Shown: positions 34,564 through 41,389 of the stretch, piece after piece
Numbering within the stretch: position 1 is the first letter of the stretch
How the letters are laid out: every line of letters starts with the position of its first letter
Source: an uncultured Eubacteriales bacterium
Lineage (GTDB): Bacteria; Bacillota; Clostridia; Saccharofermentanales; Saccharofermentanaceae
Direction of reading: 5' to 3'
NCBI GenBank assembly: GCA_900317035.1
Contig: ONFC01000009.1
Coordinates: 1 to 56,427 of the forward strand
DNA length: 56,427 nucleotides
Translations under genes and position numbers: made by a program
The notes under the pieces: model-generated
The model's input: the letters and a program-made list of their open reading frames with translations, nothing else
The model's database searches: none
Told to the model about the DNA's origin: nothing

Positions 34564-34583
34564 GCGTAAAGGAGGTGAGAATA

Positions 34584-35279
34584 ATGAAAATCAGTGAGCT
34601 TCATCCATCACTAAGACCATATGAAAGGCTTGAGACGTATGGTGCTGAAGCATTGTCTGACGAAGAACTGATTGCGATAGTGATCCGAAATGGATCAAAA
34701 GGAAAATCGTCAAAGGATATTGCATCACAGTTACTGTCAAATAGTGATAATCCGGATGGATTATGTGGCCTGTATAAGCTTTCTTTAAAAGAGCTTTCTG
34801 AGCAGGAAGGTGTTGGAAGAGTGAAAGCTATTGTCCTTAAGGCTTGTCTTGAACTTGGAAGAAGAAGCGTTCTGACTTATGGATGCAATAACAGGCTTCA
34901 GTTTCTGACAAGTGAAATAGCAGAAGCTTTTTTTGAGGAGAAGATGGCATTCCTCGAAACTGAGGAAGTTCAGATAGCGCTTCTTGATAACCGGCAATGC
35001 CTTATATCACATCATGTTATCTGTAAGGGCAGTGTAAATGGAGTTGGGCTTTGTTTTCGTGAGTTGTTCAGAATGGCTGTGAAAGCCAATGCTTCCGGAT
35101 TGATCCTGGCCCATAATCATCCCGGCGGGGATCCTACTCCGAGTGAAGAGGACATTGAAACGACAGCAAAACTTATAAACAGCGGAAAACTTATCGGAAT
35201 CAGTGTGGTAGATCATATCATTATCGGTCGCGGGATTTCGTTCAGTATGTTGAAGAATGGATTAATGGAGGAGAACTAA
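34584..35279 (+). CDS. radC: RadC/JAB-domain protein
   Basis: 231 residues: N-terminal helix-hairpin-helix (GAEALSDEELIAIVIRNGSKGKS near 17-40, LSEQEGVGRVKAIVLKA near 70) and a C-terminal JAB/MPN domain with the metal motif AHNHPGGDPTPSEED near 174-188. RadC was once linked to DNA repair, but its real function is unsettled. GGAGGTGA lies 6 bases before the ATG. In Clostridia radC is the usual first gene of the mreBCD cluster, as here. Confidence 0.93.
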   Translation: MKISELHPSLRPYERLETYGAEALSDEELIAIVIRNGSKGKSSKDIASQLLSNSDNPDGLCGLYKLSLKELSEQEGVGRVKAIVLKACLELGRRSVLTYGCNNRLQFLTSEIAEAFFEEKMAFLETEEVQIALLDNRQCLISHHVICKGSVNGVGLCFRELFRMAVKANASGLILAHNHPGGDPTPSEEDIETTAKLINSGKLIGISVVDHIIIGRGISFSMLKNGLMEEN

Positions 35280-35280
35280 A

Positions 35281-36225
35281 ATGACAAATGAGAAGAGTAC
35301 GGTAATAAATAAACTGACATTTACGGATTTTATGCGGGCATTTCGCGCACAATACAATTACGGTAACACGGAATTGAAAGATTACATGATCGCGGAACAG
35401 GTTGTTCACAAGAATAATAAAAATCTTCATGGAATCATCATAAGAAAACCGGGAACCAGAATTGCTCCTGTGTTCTACTATGAAGACTTTTATGACGCCT
35501 ATAAAAAAGGGGCTACCATTGAAGAATGTGTTTCTAAAATGATTGATTTTGTCGCCGGAAGAGACTTTTCCAATGAGTGTCTGGGTGAGATTTTTTCTTC
35601 GTGGGAGAGTGTAAAAGACAAATTAATCGTTAAACTTATCAATTTCAGCAAGAATAAGAGTCAGCTGTTATCTCTCCCATATCGGGTATTCGGTGACATG
35701 GCCGTTGTAGTCCAAATCTATCTTGATGATCCATCAATCGGGAAAGGTGCTGTTATGGTCGACATGAATCTTCTTGAGATATGGAAAAAGAATGATAGAC
35801 AATTGTTCGATACAGCTTTTGAGAATATGAAGCAATATCGCATAAAGGCAATCAATCTGCTCGATTTTGATATGGATGAGAAGATGAAAGATAAAGATTC
35901 ACCTGAAATCTATGTAGTTTCATATGATGCGCCATTCCCGGGAGCATCAGCTTTGCTGCAAACACAGTATTTAAAGAGCTTTGCGATAATGAAGGAATCG
36001 GATTTTTACGTGCTTCCTGTTTCTGTTCATGAAGTGCTTTTGATCCAGAAAAAGAAAAATATAGTGGATGATATGCTTTTTGGCATGCTTCAGGGGATTA
36101 ATTCCGACGAAAATCTGGCGGATAATATGCTGTCAGATGAAGTGCTTTATCTTAGCCGTGAATCGGACAATATTGAGTATCTTCTAGGCGGAAAAGAAGT
36201 AGTGATGGTGGATCCGTTCGCGTAG
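35281..36225 (+). CDS. DUF5688-like protein of unknown function
   Basis: 314 residues, soluble, 1 base after the radC stop. The text resembles DUF5688 proteins of Lachnospiraceae: an N-terminal helix with NYGNTELKDYMIAEQVV, then GIIIRKPGTRIAPVFYYEDFYDAYKKG near 54-78, and a C-terminal part with SFAIMKESDFYVLPVSVHEVLLI near 232-255 (family members end with a SDFYVLPSSVHEV-type stretch). No catalytic motif is visible. It sits where mreB is normally found between radC and mreC. Family call moderate. Confidence 0.7.
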   Translation: MTNEKSTVINKLTFTDFMRAFRAQYNYGNTELKDYMIAEQVVHKNNKNLHGIIIRKPGTRIAPVFYYEDFYDAYKKGATIEECVSKMIDFVAGRDFSNECLGEIFSSWESVKDKLIVKLINFSKNKSQLLSLPYRVFGDMAVVVQIYLDDPSIGKGAVMVDMNLLEIWKKNDRQLFDTAFENMKQYRIKAINLLDFDMDEKMKDKDSPEIYVVSYDAPFPGASALLQTQYLKSFAIMKESDFYVLPVSVHEVLLIQKKKNIVDDMLFGMLQGINSDENLADNMLSDEVLYLSRESDNIEYLLGGKEVVMVDPFA

Positions 36226-36259
36226 ATTCAGCTATGGTTTAACATGGCAGGGGAAATTG

Positions 36260-36268
36260 TGGTATACT
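36260..36268 (+). promoter_or_regulatory. Extended -10 promoter for the mreCD-mrdA genes
   Basis: TGG-TATACT lies 30 bases before the mreC TTG start. TTTAAC at 36238-36243 is a possible but over-spaced -35 (19 bases). Confidence 0.55.
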
Positions 36269-36298
36269 TTACAAAAGTTTGCTGTGGAGGATGCTGTA

Positions 36299-37273
36299 TT
36301 GAGACGCTTGTTTGAAAATAAACTTCTGGCACTGGTTTTGACGACCATATTGCTGGTTTCATTCATTATTCTCAGTGCGATACCCGGCAGTCCGCTGGCT
36401 GGTGCCACAAAACCCCTGTCATTTATTGTTGATCCGATTCAGTCAGTCTTCCAGAAAATCGGAACTAAGCTATCGGATTTTTATTCTGCAATTGCAGATG
36501 GTATGGAGATCCGTAAAGAAAACGAGCGCCTTAAAGAAGAAATTGCTGAGTTGGAATACAAGGTTCAGCAGGGAGAAGAAGCCCGTATTCGATGGGAAGA
36601 ACTGAAGAGTGCTTTTCAGATACAGGATACATTTGAAAACTATCATATTCGCGGAGCTTCCGTACTTACCCGTGAATCCGATGAGTGGTTTTCTGTTATC
36701 CGTATCAATGTTGGTACACATTCCGGCATTGACACATCTACCGGATCTTATGCGGTTGTAGACGCCCGTATGCACCTTGTGGGACGTGTAATGTCAACAG
36801 ATCTGGATTCATCGAAGATCTTACCTCTCCTTCATGAAGGTTTTACGGTCAGTGCTAAGGTGAATGAGGTGAACGGAGCGACTGTAATTGTTTCAGGAGA
36901 TATCATTCTAAAGAATCAGGGCCTTTGCGTGGTAAGCAGGATCCCTTCTAATATTGTATTAAAGCCTGGTACGGAACTGGTTACAAGTGGTGAGGGAGGT
37001 CTTTTCCCCGCAGGTATTCCAATCGGTGTTATTGAGAGTTTTGATAATTCCGACCCGGATAATCTGAAGGCGACTATGCGTCCTTATGTATCTTTATCCG
37101 ATATTAAAGACGTTTTCATCATGGTACCGAATACTGAAGAGGATATAGAGAATACTGAAAATCAGCAGACATCACTGACGGCGCCTACATCAGTTGTGCC
37201 GCCGGAATCAGCTGATCCTAAAGAATCTGAAGTTGAAAGCACACCGCAAGCATCCGGAGAAGGTGCGGCATGA
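36299..37273 (+). CDS. mreC: Rod-shape protein MreC
   Basis: 324 residues: short cytosolic N-terminus, one membrane segment near 8-28 (KLLALVLTTILLVSFIILSAI), a coiled coil near 60-95 (RKENERLKEEIAELEYKVQQ), then the periplasm-side beta domain (VIRINVGTHSGIDTSTGSYAVV near 126) and a Ser/Thr/Glu-rich tail of about 45 residues. MreC links wall synthases to the cell-shape machinery. The start is likely TTG 36299, with GGAGG 8 bases upstream; the longer frame from an ATG at 36257 has no ribosome-binding site and overlaps the promoter. mreB is not upstream. Overlaps mreD by ATGA. Confidence 0.92.
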   Translation: MRRLFENKLLALVLTTILLVSFIILSAIPGSPLAGATKPLSFIVDPIQSVFQKIGTKLSDFYSAIADGMEIRKENERLKEEIAELEYKVQQGEEARIRWEELKSAFQIQDTFENYHIRGASVLTRESDEWFSVIRINVGTHSGIDTSTGSYAVVDARMHLVGRVMSTDLDSSKILPLLHEGFTVSAKVNEVNGATVIVSGDIILKNQGLCVVSRIPSNIVLKPGTELVTSGEGGLFPAGIPIGVIESFDNSDPDNLKATMRPYVSLSDIKDVFIMVPNTEEDIENTENQQTSLTAPTSVVPPESADPKESEVESTPQASGEGAA

Positions 37274-37887
37274 GCAAAAAAGAAAAAGCCAGACAGATAA
37301 TAGTATATGCTATATATATTACAAGTGTATGCTGTTTACAGGTGACATTCCCTCACGTGTTTCGCCTTTTTGGCCGCACATGTGATCTTATGCTCGTTTT
37401 TGTTGTGCTTTCCGGTTATTTGTTCGGAACCAAAGATGGTATTGTGGTAGGACTTTTTGTCGGGATGCTACGCGATTATTTTTCCGGACCGGTTATATCA
37501 GGACTAGATAGAGCACCTGTTGCTGTTTTAGGTATTGGCCTTTTAGCTTTCTTTTATATCGGACTTTTATCATCTGTGCTGTTTCGTAAAAGATTCAGAA
37601 GAAAGTATAATCAGTCTATTATTCAGGTAGTAATCATCTCTGCAATGTATTATTCTCTCGGCCATATCTGTTCTATGATCTATCTAAAAATGTCACAGAA
37701 CATTCAAGCCTATCATTCTGTCAAGTATATTATTCTCTCAAGCATTCTGCCGCAGATCCTTGTAAATGTTATAGCTGCTTTACCGCTGCTTTTGCTTTTG
37801 AGATTTGCGGGTCCTTATAAGAAAGGCATACGTACCGGGCTTGTTGACGGATATAGTATGGAGGATCGAAGATGGCAAAAAATCTAA
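37270..37887 (+). CDS. mreD: Rod-shape membrane protein MreD
   Basis: 205 residues, about five membrane segments; GYLFGTKDGIVVGLFVGMLRDYFSG near 50-74 is the MreD core signature. It starts inside the mreC stop (ATGA) and overlaps the next gene by 16 bases, so translation of mreC, mreD and mrdA is coupled. Confidence 0.88.
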   Translation: MSKKEKARQIIVYAIYITSVCCLQVTFPHVFRLFGRTCDLMLVFVVLSGYLFGTKDGIVVGLFVGMLRDYFSGPVISGLDRAPVAVLGIGLLAFFYIGLLSSVLFRKRFRRKYNQSIIQVVIISAMYYSLGHICSMIYLKMSQNIQAYHSVKYIILSSILPQILVNVIAALPLLLLLRFAGPYKKGIRTGLVDGYSMEDRRWQKI

Positions 37888-40247
37888 AAGACGATAATTT
37901 GTATGTGTTTGATGAGGATCATATTTCTTCCAAACCGGTATCGAATAGTGGTGGATTTACCCAGCATCTGATCGATTTCTTTACCAGCCGCTATTTTGTA
38001 CTTGGTCTGGTATTCTGTGTTTTCGGGCTTTTGATCCTTATAAAAACTGTATCTTTACAGTTTTCGGATTATTCGAAGAAAATCTCCGCAGACTCTGTCG
38101 GAGTATCCCATCAATATGTCGTTCCAGCGCCTAGAGGCGATATTATTGACGGAAATGGCCGTGTAATCGCAACCACACAGGAAATTAATGTCCTTATGCT
38201 CGCTAACTCAGGACTTCCGGATGACAAGCTTAACAGCATGTGTCTGGAATTATCGTATCTGTTTGATGAGTATAATTGTGTTCCAGTGGCTGATCTTGAT
38301 AAATATTTTGCAGTTGAGCCGTATAGATTTTTAAAATCTGATGAAGAAATAGCTTTGTGGCAAACCAATAGAAATCTCTTTGCTTTAAAAGAACCTAATC
38401 CGAATACGGTCGTAACATATAGCGATCTCTATGTGAAAAGTGATCCGAAGGTATTTTTCCTTTTCCTTCGAAGACAGTTTAAACTGGATGAAAACTATAC
38501 AGAAGAGGAAGCTTACCGCATTATTCGTATCCGATATCAGATCTATATGGATAACTGGTCTTTCCAGACCGGAACTCCTGTCATGATCGCAAAAGATGTT
38601 CCAGAAGAACTTATTCGAATGCTTTTGGAACAGAATTACCATTATATGGGCATTCTGCCTAATAAAGAATATAGACGTGTGTATACACCTCTGGCGAAGT
38701 ATTCCTCTCATGTTATTGGATACATCTGGCCGATTTCGCAGGAGAGACTTACGGAACTTGCCCCTGTGGGATATCAGGCATCTGACCTGGTAGGTCAAGG
38801 TGGAGTTGAAGCTCAGATGGAGCGTTATCTGCATGGCCAGTATGGTGAAAAGCCATATAACATCTGGTCTACAGATGAGGAAAACGGTTACTTCTATGAT
38901 TCTGCGCTGGGTATAGAACCGGTACCTGGAGCACGTGTAGAGCTTACAATTGATAGCAACATCCAACAGGTTGGTATCAACGCTATCAAAGATTATATTG
39001 AAGCGGCTAAACGTAAAGAGGAAGCACGTCCGGAAGATGAACGATACAAAACTGCTTCTGCCGGTTCTTTCGTTATGATGAATGTCAAAAGCGGAGAGAT
39101 CATCGCTATGGGATCTTATCCTGATTTTGACCCGAATGACTTTGTCCTTTACATGGAAGGCGACGCACAGGCAAAGGCTCAGTTTAAATACTATCTTGGA
39201 ATTGATGAGTATCAGGATATTACCGCAGTCGATACACCGATTTGGAATCGTGCGATCATGTCCAAGTATCCTCCGGGATCGACATTCAAGATGGTTACTG
39301 CACTTGCTGCGCTGGATAGTGGAAGGATTACACCTGAAAACAGTGAAGTTCGCTGCGTAAGCCCGACAGATTTCGGCGGAATGCAATGGAAGTGTCTTGA
39401 GAGAAAGGATGGAGGACATGGAATTCTTGATCTGACCTCTGGATTAGCAACGTCTTGCAATATTTATTTTGCTTCACTTGGTGTTGATACTACGATCAAT
39501 GAAATCGACCGGATCGGCGAATCGCTTGGACTTGGGAAGCTTACAGGAGTTGATCTTCCGGGTGAGATCCCGGGCGTCCGAGCAAATCGTGTGAATAAGA
39601 GACTGCTTCGTGAGGCGAGTACAACAGATGAGGACAAGGACTGGCACGTGGCGGATACTGCGCAGGCTTCAATCGGACAGTTCGATAACTGCTTTACTGT
39701 AATTCAGTTAGCAAGATATACTGCGGCACTTTCCACGAACTATCTTGTTACACCTCATGTTATCAGAAGAGTAGTCGCTGCGGATGGTTCTATTCTCTAT
39801 AATGGAACAAACAATGTGATTCCTCTGGGATATAAAGAAGAATACCTTCAGGCGATCCGGAAAGGCATGCGCGCTGTAGTAACCAGCAATCAGGGAACTG
39901 CAAATAAACTGCTTGGAGATTTTCCAATCGAGGTAGCATGTAAGACAGGAACGGCAGAGACCGGATTTGAGGATGTTAAAAAAGAGTATTCTAACGGCGT
40001 TTTTGTTTGCTATGCTCCATACGATGATCCGGAAATATGTATTGCTCTCTGTATCGAAAAAGGTGAGTGGGGTTCCAATACTATCGAAATAGCGAAAAAA
40101 CTGCTGATGGCGTATTATGGTGAACCTGACCCGAAACAGGCAAAACCGGTTAGAACGTATCCGCCCCTCGGAGATGTCTCGGCTAATGAAACGTCTGCGG
40201 ACCCCAATGCTCAGGAAACTTCTGCAGAGCCAAACACTGAGGGTTGA
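37872..40247 (+). CDS. mrdA: Penicillin-binding protein 2 (class B transpeptidase)
   Basis: Peptidoglycan transpeptidase of the elongation machinery. 791 residues, longer than most. Membrane anchor near 38-60 (FVLGLVFCVFGLLILIKTV), pedestal domain, then the penicillin-binding domain with SxxK as PPGSTFKMV near 470, SxN as TSCNIYFAS near 528, and KTG as CKTGTAETG near 690. A Thr/Ser/Glu/Asn-rich C-terminal tail of about 25 residues follows (ANETSADPNAQETS). GGAGG is 8 bases before the ATG. No rodA partner gene is found beside it. Confidence 0.95.
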   Translation: MAKNLKDDNLYVFDEDHISSKPVSNSGGFTQHLIDFFTSRYFVLGLVFCVFGLLILIKTVSLQFSDYSKKISADSVGVSHQYVVPAPRGDIIDGNGRVIATTQEINVLMLANSGLPDDKLNSMCLELSYLFDEYNCVPVADLDKYFAVEPYRFLKSDEEIALWQTNRNLFALKEPNPNTVVTYSDLYVKSDPKVFFLFLRRQFKLDENYTEEEAYRIIRIRYQIYMDNWSFQTGTPVMIAKDVPEELIRMLLEQNYHYMGILPNKEYRRVYTPLAKYSSHVIGYIWPISQERLTELAPVGYQASDLVGQGGVEAQMERYLHGQYGEKPYNIWSTDEENGYFYDSALGIEPVPGARVELTIDSNIQQVGINAIKDYIEAAKRKEEARPEDERYKTASAGSFVMMNVKSGEIIAMGSYPDFDPNDFVLYMEGDAQAKAQFKYYLGIDEYQDITAVDTPIWNRAIMSKYPPGSTFKMVTALAALDSGRITPENSEVRCVSPTDFGGMQWKCLERKDGGHGILDLTSGLATSCNIYFASLGVDTTINEIDRIGESLGLGKLTGVDLPGEIPGVRANRVNKRLLREASTTDEDKDWHVADTAQASIGQFDNCFTVIQLARYTAALSTNYLVTPHVIRRVVAADGSILYNGTNNVIPLGYKEEYLQAIRKGMRAVVTSNQGTANKLLGDFPIEVACKTGTAETGFEDVKKEYSNGVFVCYAPYDDPEICIALCIEKGEWGSNTIEIAKKLLMAYYGEPDPKQAKPVRTYPPLGDVSANETSADPNAQETSAEPNTEG

Positions 40248-40291
40248 TTATCTTTTTGAGTGGTATTTTTATGCAAAATAGTAAATTTTAG

Positions 40292-40320
40292 TTGCAGATT
40301 TCCACTTGAGTTAGTAGAAT
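40292..40320 (+). promoter_or_regulatory. Sigma-A-type promoter for the methylglyoxal-synthase-like gene
   Basis: TTGCAG (40292-40297), 17-base spacer, TAGAAT (40315-40320), 30 bases before the start codon and 45 bases after the mrdA stop. Confidence 0.75.
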
Positions 40321-40349
40321 ATATATATACTTTCTTGGAGGCAGCACGA

Positions 40350-40751
40350 ATGAAGATCGTTATAATGGCTGATAATCGTAAAAATGAGCTTCTCGTAAAC
40401 TTTTGTATTGCATATCGTCAGCTTCTTTCTAAACACACTTTGATTTCGCTGCATAATACTGCCACCTTACTTGAATCAGCTGCTGAATTAAATGTTGTCG
40501 GCCTTTCTACTGATTATTCCGGTGGGTTTGATCAGCTTGCGTCCCGTGCTGAATATAATGAGATTGACTCAGTCATCTATCTTAGAGACACTCAGCTTGC
40601 AAATTATAACGAGATCAATCCGCTCTTGAAGGCATGTGATTATAACAGCATCCCGTATGCTACTAATCTGGCAAGTGCCGAGATCCTGATATTGGCCATT
40701 GACCGTGGTGACCTGGATTGGCGTGAACTTGTTCGGGATAATTCCTTCTGA
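40350..40751 (+). CDS. Methylglyoxal-synthase-fold protein lacking catalytic residues
   Basis: 133 residues that align without gaps over the first ~75 to E. coli MgsA (LNV, GG, EID and, later, IPYATN and ASAEILI anchors). Real MgsA turns dihydroxyacetone phosphate into methylglyoxal. Here nearly all active-site positions differ (E. coli numbers): His19-Asp20 become Asp-Asn, Lys23 becomes Asn, Thr45 and Thr47 become Leu and Asn, Gly66 becomes Asp, the catalytic Asp71 becomes Phe, His98 is lost and Asp101 is Glu or Asn; Thr48 and Asp91 remain. I predict no methylglyoxal synthesis. The frame opens further upstream, but the ATG at 40350 has GGAGG 9 bases before it. In Clostridia mgsA normally closes the mre cluster, and this gene holds that place. 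Confidence 0.82.
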   Translation: MKIVIMADNRKNELLVNFCIAYRQLLSKHTLISLHNTATLLESAAELNVVGLSTDYSGGFDQLASRAEYNEIDSVIYLRDTQLANYNEINPLLKACDYNSIPYATNLASAEILILAIDRGDLDWRELVRDNSF

Positions 40752-40756
40752 TTATC

Positions 40757-41389
40757 ATGGATATCCTTTGTTTTTCATATGGCTTGGCTTATGCCAATAT
40801 GTACGTTCTTCGTTTTGGTAATGAAGCGATAGTTATAGATCCATGCTGTCCGTGGGATGAAACAGGTCTTTCGGATGTTTCTGTAAAAGCTGTCTTATGT
40901 ACACATGGCCACTTTGATCATATTTCCGAGGCGGAAGAGATACTAGCACGTTTTTCCTGCCCCCTTTATATCTCCGAATATGACAGAAACATGCTTCCTG
41001 ACCCTGAACTCAACCATTCCTCGAGCTTTGGACTTCATGTCTCGGTAAATGCTCCCTCTGCATCATTCCCCAAAGAAAGTATGAGTTCTGCAGATTTAGG
41101 CCTTCACACAGAGAATGAGTTTATTCTTCAAGTTGTTCCTACTCCTGGACACACTTCCGGATCTGTTTGTTTTCTATTTGTATTCAAAGATGATCATCGG
41201 GAAGTCATGTTTACCGGGGATACTTTGTTTAGAAGAGGGATCGGTCGTACAGATCTTGGAGGCTCTGAAGAAGAGATGCGTAGATCGATCGATCTACTTC
41301 GGACAATGAATGATGATATCGAGTGTTATCCCGGACATGGTTCGAAGACAGACCTTCGATCTGAAAAACGATTGAATCCGTTCTTTTGA
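40757..41389 (+). CDS. Metallo-beta-lactamase-fold hydrolase (glyoxalase II-like)
   Basis: 210 residues, 5 bases after the previous stop. Complete binuclear metal set: THGHFDH near residues 49-55, PTPGHTSGS near 132-140, FTGDTLFRRGIGRTD near 153-167 and CYPGHG near 194-199. This is the YcbL/GloB-like group, which hydrolyses thioesters. The neighbour looks like methylglyoxal synthase, but that protein seems inactive, so a methylglyoxal pathway cannot be assumed. No useful ribosome-binding site stands apart from the previous gene; translation is probably coupled. Confidence 0.87.
   Translation: MDILCFSYGLAYANMYVLRFGNEAIVIDPCCPWDETGLSDVSVKAVLCTHGHFDHISEAEEILARFSCPLYISEYDRNMLPDPELNHSSSFGLHVSVNAPSASFPKESMSSADLGLHTENEFILQVVPTPGHTSGSVCFLFVFKDDHREVMFTGDTLFRRGIGRTDLGGSEEEMRRSIDLLRTMNDDIECYPGHGSKTDLRSEKRLNPFF

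Follow-up and report, generated by a model that had tools for sequence, protein, structure and literature searches.

Locus organisation and gene neighbourhood

The window, which here denotes the whole 56,427-nucleotide stretch of contig ONFC01000009.1 (assembly GCA_900317035.1; order Saccharofermentanales, class Clostridia), contains an open reading frame that begins with ATG at 40350 and closes with a stop codon ending at 40751 (Table 1). The gene lies directly behind PBP2, as an earlier sequence-only reading of this DNA had placed it, and PBP2 is the directly upstream gene in 71 of the 80 loci collected from the order. The conserved gene order with mreC-mreD-PBP2 that would be expected of a component of the elongation machine is therefore observed. 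The cluster in the window (34575-40247) comprises radC, mreC, mreD and PBP2 without mreB, minCDE or rodA. The full-length mreB of this genome (G000) is located on another contig (C60), and no MinC match exceeding the family cut-off was found in 41 related genomes of the order, including that of the window. A DUF5688 protein encoded between radC and mreC (35281-36225) occurs in the genus with a median identity of 53% and is absent from the other loci of the order.

Table 1. Features of the locus, with positions in the window.
Feature	Position	Strand	Basis
mreC	36257..37273	+	
mreD	37270..37887	+	
PBP2 (mrdA type), directly upstream of the MGS-like gene	37872..40247	+	
Promoter-like element: TTGCAG (40292-40297), 17 nt, TAGAAT (40315-40320)	40292..40320	+	conserved in genus
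Ribosome-binding site GGAGG	40337..40341	+	sequence; conserved
Pseudo-MgsA, 133 aa: an MGS fold lacking the MgsA catalytic set	40350..40751	+	sequence, profile matches, model
Codons 8-12, DNRKN, in place of the His19-Asp20...Lys23 motif	40371..40385	+	order alignment
Codons 55-60, DYSGGF, in place of the substrate-covering loop GPLGGD	40512..40529	+	order alignment
Codon 80, Asp (Asp91 in E. coli), the sole acidic residue of the active site that every copy retains	40587..40589	+	
Codons 119-125, RGDLDWR, C-terminal hallmark of the clade of cluster-linked clostridial MGS proteins	40704..40724	+	
GloB-like metallo-beta-lactamase-fold hydrolase, directly downstream of the MGS-like gene	40757..41389	+	

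A GloB-like metallo-beta-lactamase-fold (MBL) hydrolase is found directly downstream in 68 of the 80 order loci, and in the window its start codon is 5 nt past the stop codon of the MGS-like gene. No such pairing was found beside the class copies outside the order. The window hydrolase has an intact THGHFDH motif.

A promoter belonging to the gene itself had also been proposed. The TTGCAG-17 nt-TAGAAT element is conserved throughout the genus and can be made out in two other genera, which supports the proposal, although a consensus promoter scan upstream of the gene returned nothing above chance and scored this element below threshold. A TTTTTATGCAAAATA-like stretch upstream of the element (40265-40290) is likewise present genus-wide and is a possible regulator site.

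Fold and family assignment

The structure of the protein was predicted as a monomer from an input of 46 order sequences, with a pLDDT of 87.4 and a pTM of 0.81. The model adopts the MGS fold over the whole chain. Its top 26 Foldseek matches are all MgsA chains, followed by the MGS domains of carbamoyl-phosphate synthetases. In VIA, the model aligns with T. thermophilus MgsA (1wo8) over 119 residues (Z 20.7, 2.1 A) and with B. subtilis MgsA (Z 19.7), and the carbamoyl-phosphate synthetase domains reach Z values of ~10-14. The methylglyoxal-synthase fold suggested from the letters alone is thus upheld by the prediction, the best PDB matches all being MgsA.

Sequence searches agree on the ancestry and place the protein outside the curated family. 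In phmmer, residues 1-130 match B. subtilis MgsA (6f2c; E 1e-19, ~35% identical) and residues 3-116 match E. coli MgsA (1b93; E 2.4e-7). The alignment had been described as gap-free over the first ~75 residues; against 6f2c, no gap occurs before residue 88, and with the same result in 89 sequences an alignment artefact is ruled out. Both NCBIfam MgsA models stay below cut-off, TIGR00160 scoring 67.1 bits against 146.9 and NF003559 scoring 64.3 against 84. The Pfam MGS family (PF02142) gives 14 bits against a gathering score of 24.1 (E 0.058), also below cut-off, despite a match that spans profile positions 2-94 of 94.

The MGS fold is shared with the regulatory domains of CarB (1ce8) and CPS1 (5dou), which are non-catalytic and ligand-sensing. 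Those domains are C-terminal in large enzymes and 13-17% identical to the window protein, whereas the latter is a free-standing 133-aa ORF with no fusion to CarB; for that reason it does not belong to the CarB type. The regulatory MGS domain of CarB may nevertheless be taken as the closest working analogy.

Loss of the MgsA active site

In MgsA, D71 accepts the proton, the oxygens are stabilised by H19 and H98, and the phosphate is held by K23, S65 and T45-G49 (PMC7843640). Thirteen active-site positions were compared (H8, D9, K12, T34, G35, T36, T37, S54, G55, D60, D80, H87 and D90 in B. subtilis MgsA; 19, 20, 23, 45-48, 65, 66, 71, 91, 98 and 101 in E. coli numbering). The window protein shares its whole-chain fold, clostridial genomic place and C-terminal element with MgsA of the Bacillus/Clostridium type (6f2c; C. 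difficile cdMGS, PMC7843640), but it differs in the replacement of 11 of the 13 residues, in a hydrophobic base position and in an acidic pocket. The catalytic base Asp71 is Phe60. Of the phosphate-binding set (Lys23, Thr45-Thr48 and Ser65-Gly66), only Thr48 is kept, as Thr37, with Lys23 replaced by Asn12, Thr45 by Leu34, Gly46 by His35, Thr47 by Asn36, Ser65 by Thr54 and Gly66 by Asp55. His19 and Asp20 have become Asp8 and Asn9, and both His98 and Asp101 are gone, the loop there bearing a 2-residue deletion. The alignment bears out every substitution that the sequence-only reading had listed (Asp71, Lys23, His19-Asp20, Thr45, Thr47, His98 and Asp101). Its statement that no catalytic set remains is upheld; Asp91 (Asp80) and Thr48, which it does not mention, persist.

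The loss extends over the order. Neither Asp nor Glu occurs at the Asp71 position in any of 89 distinct order sequences, 88 of which have Phe, Leu, Ile, Met, Val or Tyr there, and all 80 collected order copies retain just 1-3 of the 13 active-site residues. Close relatives with intact Asp71, His98 and Asp101, which would have marked this copy as a decayed gene, were therefore not encountered. Because both the catalytic set and the curated-model scores fall short, the protein is not a member of the MgsA family. Judged from its residues, it cannot turn DHAP into methylglyoxal along the known route, having lost the base, the histidines and the residues that bind phosphate, and it would accordingly be predicted to make no methylglyoxal.

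A rewritten, acidic pocket

The active site had been called erased; the order alignment instead reveals a rewritten site, with a new conserved acidic set (positions 8, 55 and 80) together with Ser33, Asn36 and Tyr77. Position 8 is Asp or Glu in 89/89 distinct order sequences and position 55 in 87/89, and all three positions are acidic in 87/89. Ser33 (86/89), Tyr77 (85/89), Thr37 (80/89) and Asn36 (78/89) are also kept, and an acid follows just after the lost base, at position 61, in 78/89. Asp8 and Asp55 are derived states of the order, as these positions are His and Gly in most other linked copies. The loop at position 55 is the least confident part of the model (pLDDT ~69).

Elsewhere in the pocket, positions 9, 12, 35, 54, 56 and 81-90 vary freely inside the order. 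The entropy at the catalytic positions rises from 0.21 bits in intact linked copies to 1.59 bits in the order, and this rise exceeds that at other positions invariant in intact copies (permutation p 0.004), which indicates that selection has shifted away from the catalytic positions.

Most of the invariant residues outside the pocket have an older origin. Residues L14, V16, F18, C19, I20, A21, Y22, R66, N70, E71, R79, C96, D97, E111, L113 and R119-W124 are common to intact, partly eroded and rewritten cluster-linked copies and are rare in unlinked MgsA, and the RGDLDWR signature is retained through the loss of the active site. NFCIAY, YNEID and RGDLDWR, considered as signs of a new function, were rejected as ancestral to clostridial linked MgsA. 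The scaffold anchors noted earlier mostly belong to this ancestral signature; since most invariant residues are ancestral, derived status is confined to the changes in the pocket. The linked-only residue set was itself picked for conservation, so that its low entropy is no test, a purpose served by the permutation at the catalytic sites. These linked-only residues could make up a surface for a partner or a contact in the assembly; they may also reflect clade history or subunit packing and not a partner surface.

Constraint within the order

Of 59 related genomes, 56 carry the gene, among them 45/45 of those at least 90% complete with little contamination. Within the genus, dN/dS is ~0.02, with dS high and near saturation. 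The median identity of the MGS-like protein within the genus is 97%, compared with 93 for IDH, 91 for SecA, 80 for PBP2 and 57 for the MBL hydrolase, which makes it the most conserved of 12 neighbouring genes. Towards other genera of the order, the corresponding medians are 69% for the MGS-like protein, 79 for IDH, 66 for SecA, 53 for PBP2 and 34 for the MBL hydrolase. The substitutions, common to 89 distinct sequences under very strong purifying selection, fit the conserved and not decayed protein implied by the sequence-only reading; as the alignment reads, these residue changes are far beyond chance.

Erosion of cluster-linked copies across the class

An alignment search returned matches in 244 of 391 Clostridia genomes, and 60 loci outside the order (L175-L234) were read together with their neighbours. 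In most loci with a long enough contig, the gene closes the maf-mreBCD-PBP2-minCDE-rodA series, whatever the state of its active site. The earlier statement that mgsA is the closing gene of the clostridial mre/min cluster is thus borne out at class level. The integrity of the active site in these 60 copies ranges from 6 to 13 of 13. Asp71 is absent in 25/60 linked copies from many families, and Glu stands there in 15. Mapped on a PBP2 tree, the Asp71 state switches 7 times, with good branch support for at least 5, and Asp71 is already missing from the families that lie on the same side as the order. From these sequences, the cluster-linked clostridial gene has lost Asp71 in at least five lineages with its place kept, and the window protein is the extreme of a class-wide erosion of cluster-linked MgsA.

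A second, unlinked match was detected in 6/60 class genomes, and two further second copies occur inside the order; all eight are 13/13 intact. In each of these eight two-copy genomes, the cluster-linked copy lacks Asp71. Among the 60 class genomes, a second copy accompanies 6/25 linked copies without Asp71 and 0/35 with it (Fisher p 0.0035, ancestry uncorrected), a pattern that would fit a division of roles between the two copies. The methylglyoxal synthase annotation is accordingly doubtful for cluster-linked clostridial copies that lack Asp71, as far as their residues indicate.

Most genomes of the order have no second MgsA copy, and no other MgsA was found in the window's own genome (94% complete). 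PF02142 has three matches in that genome, in open frames of 525, 1082 and 691 aa. The 691-aa frame is presumably a carbamoyl-phosphate synthetase, as identified by eye, and the 525- and 1082-aa frames are taken from their lengths to be PurH and CarB.

Interpretation

Because the catalytic site is lost, a new pocket is conserved and selection is very strong, the protein very probably does another job than methylglyoxal synthesis, and the label methylglyoxal synthase would be a misreading. The best reading, which we consider likely, is a free-standing, non-catalytic MGS-fold protein with a binding or regulatory role. A vertically inherited, cluster-linked clostridial mgsA would have been converted in place to a non-catalytic protein that, in the manner of other MgsA proteins, presumably acts as an oligomer. 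What was once the phosphate pocket is now acidic (Asp8, Asp55 and Asp80 with Ser33, Asn36 and Tyr77) and would bind another ligand or lock the loop, and a partner might be contacted by FCIAY in helix 1, NE at 70-71, CD at 96-97 and RGDLDW near the C-terminus. A tentative but plausible extension is that the cluster-end clostridial MGS protein has an old non-catalytic role to which catalysis was a dispensable extra, the pocket of the order having been rebuilt for another ligand.

Weak or different chemistry is possible, Asp91 and Thr48 being kept. A different enzyme or a small-molecule sensor appears unlikely; its pocket would have been rebuilt round Asp8, Asp55 and Asp80, perhaps to take an amine-bearing ligand or a cation, and selection would maintain that chemistry or sensing and not partner binding. 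The near-invariant acidic triad, two members of which are derived in the order, and the mostly kept Ser33, Asn36, Tyr77 and Thr37 would suit such a protein, and in CarB, domains of this fold bind allosteric ligands (IMP in 1ce8); however, the free variation of the remaining pocket positions is odd for a shared ligand, and there is no cofactor motif. A methylglyoxal synthase that still works with an unusual active site is very improbable. The fold, Asp91 and Thr48 are retained, most order genomes have no other MgsA, and the MgsA of C. difficile, which has the known residues, is enzymatically active (PMC7843640), but the mechanism assigned to D71, H19, K23, T45-G49 and S65 (PMC7843640) cannot run in a protein that has lost the base and nearly all phosphate-binding residues and has gained an acid in the phosphate loop. 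Decay of the gene is hardly credible. Although catalytic residues are lost, in graded fashion over the class, the dN/dS value, the top conservation within the genus and the presence in all good order genomes rule it out.

The sequence-only reading had also tentatively linked the protein to wall growth, a link drawn from gene order. A part or regulator of MreCD/PBP2 would explain why the gene order is kept across Clostridia at any active-site state, and a strong MGS match tracks MreC over the 391 class genomes (195 with both, 11 with MGS only, 138 with MreC only and 47 with neither; ancestry uncorrected). MreC is missing, however, from three near-complete order genomes (G037, G040 and G049) that keep the MGS-like gene, which is thus not lost with the elongation machine. 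Full-length MreB is absent as well from G040 and G049, in which the gene directly follows radC, and no mreC-mreD-PBP2 block lies beside the gene in L245 and L246 (G040, G049) or L247 (G037). The 138 genomes with MreC and no strong MGS match, together with the promoter-like element belonging to the gene itself, also argue against an elongation-machine accessory, which is quite unlikely. Since three genomes have lost mreC yet keep the gene, the wall-growth link is only suggestive: the partner need not be the elongation machine, and a tie to envelope growth may exist without being demanded by the data.

Implications and possible partners

No free-standing MGS-fold pseudo-enzyme was found in the literature searched, and no paper joining methylglyoxal synthase with pseudoenzyme, with mreB and Clostridium, or with mreC and minD was found in a search confined mostly to literature outside subscription. 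Such a protein, kept throughout an order of gut and rumen bacteria, would thus appear to be a novel form of a known kind of protein. Within the genus, this protein is more constrained than SecA, though it has no known function. If the old non-catalytic role is true, many clostridial genes named mgsA would not encode methylglyoxal synthases. The methylglyoxal bypass is inferred from the presence of mgsA: in a Butyrivibrio study, MgsA was counted in all 62 genomes, and the methylglyoxal pathway was offered as an alternative where enolase seemed missing (PMC4478896). Such inferences would need an active-site check if many cluster-linked copies are inactive. Because Asp71 has been lost repeatedly with the gene order kept, a non-catalytic role of clostridial MgsA can be put to a direct test.

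A protein partner of MgsA has a precedent in the control of B. subtilis MgsA by Crh, in the passages of PMC10714963 and PMC12291648 that cite it, and a passage of the former also cites a tie between elevated methylglyoxal and cell division. As described there, B. subtilis MgsA is active and inhibited by its Crh partner, whereas the window protein is predicted to be non-catalytic. HPr-domain proteins occur in every order genome searched, mostly as one good and one partial match. The partial HPr-like protein of the window's genome, whose gene is not near the MGS-like gene, is encoded at L242:4903-5181 (G000, contig C178) and is a possible Crh-like partner.
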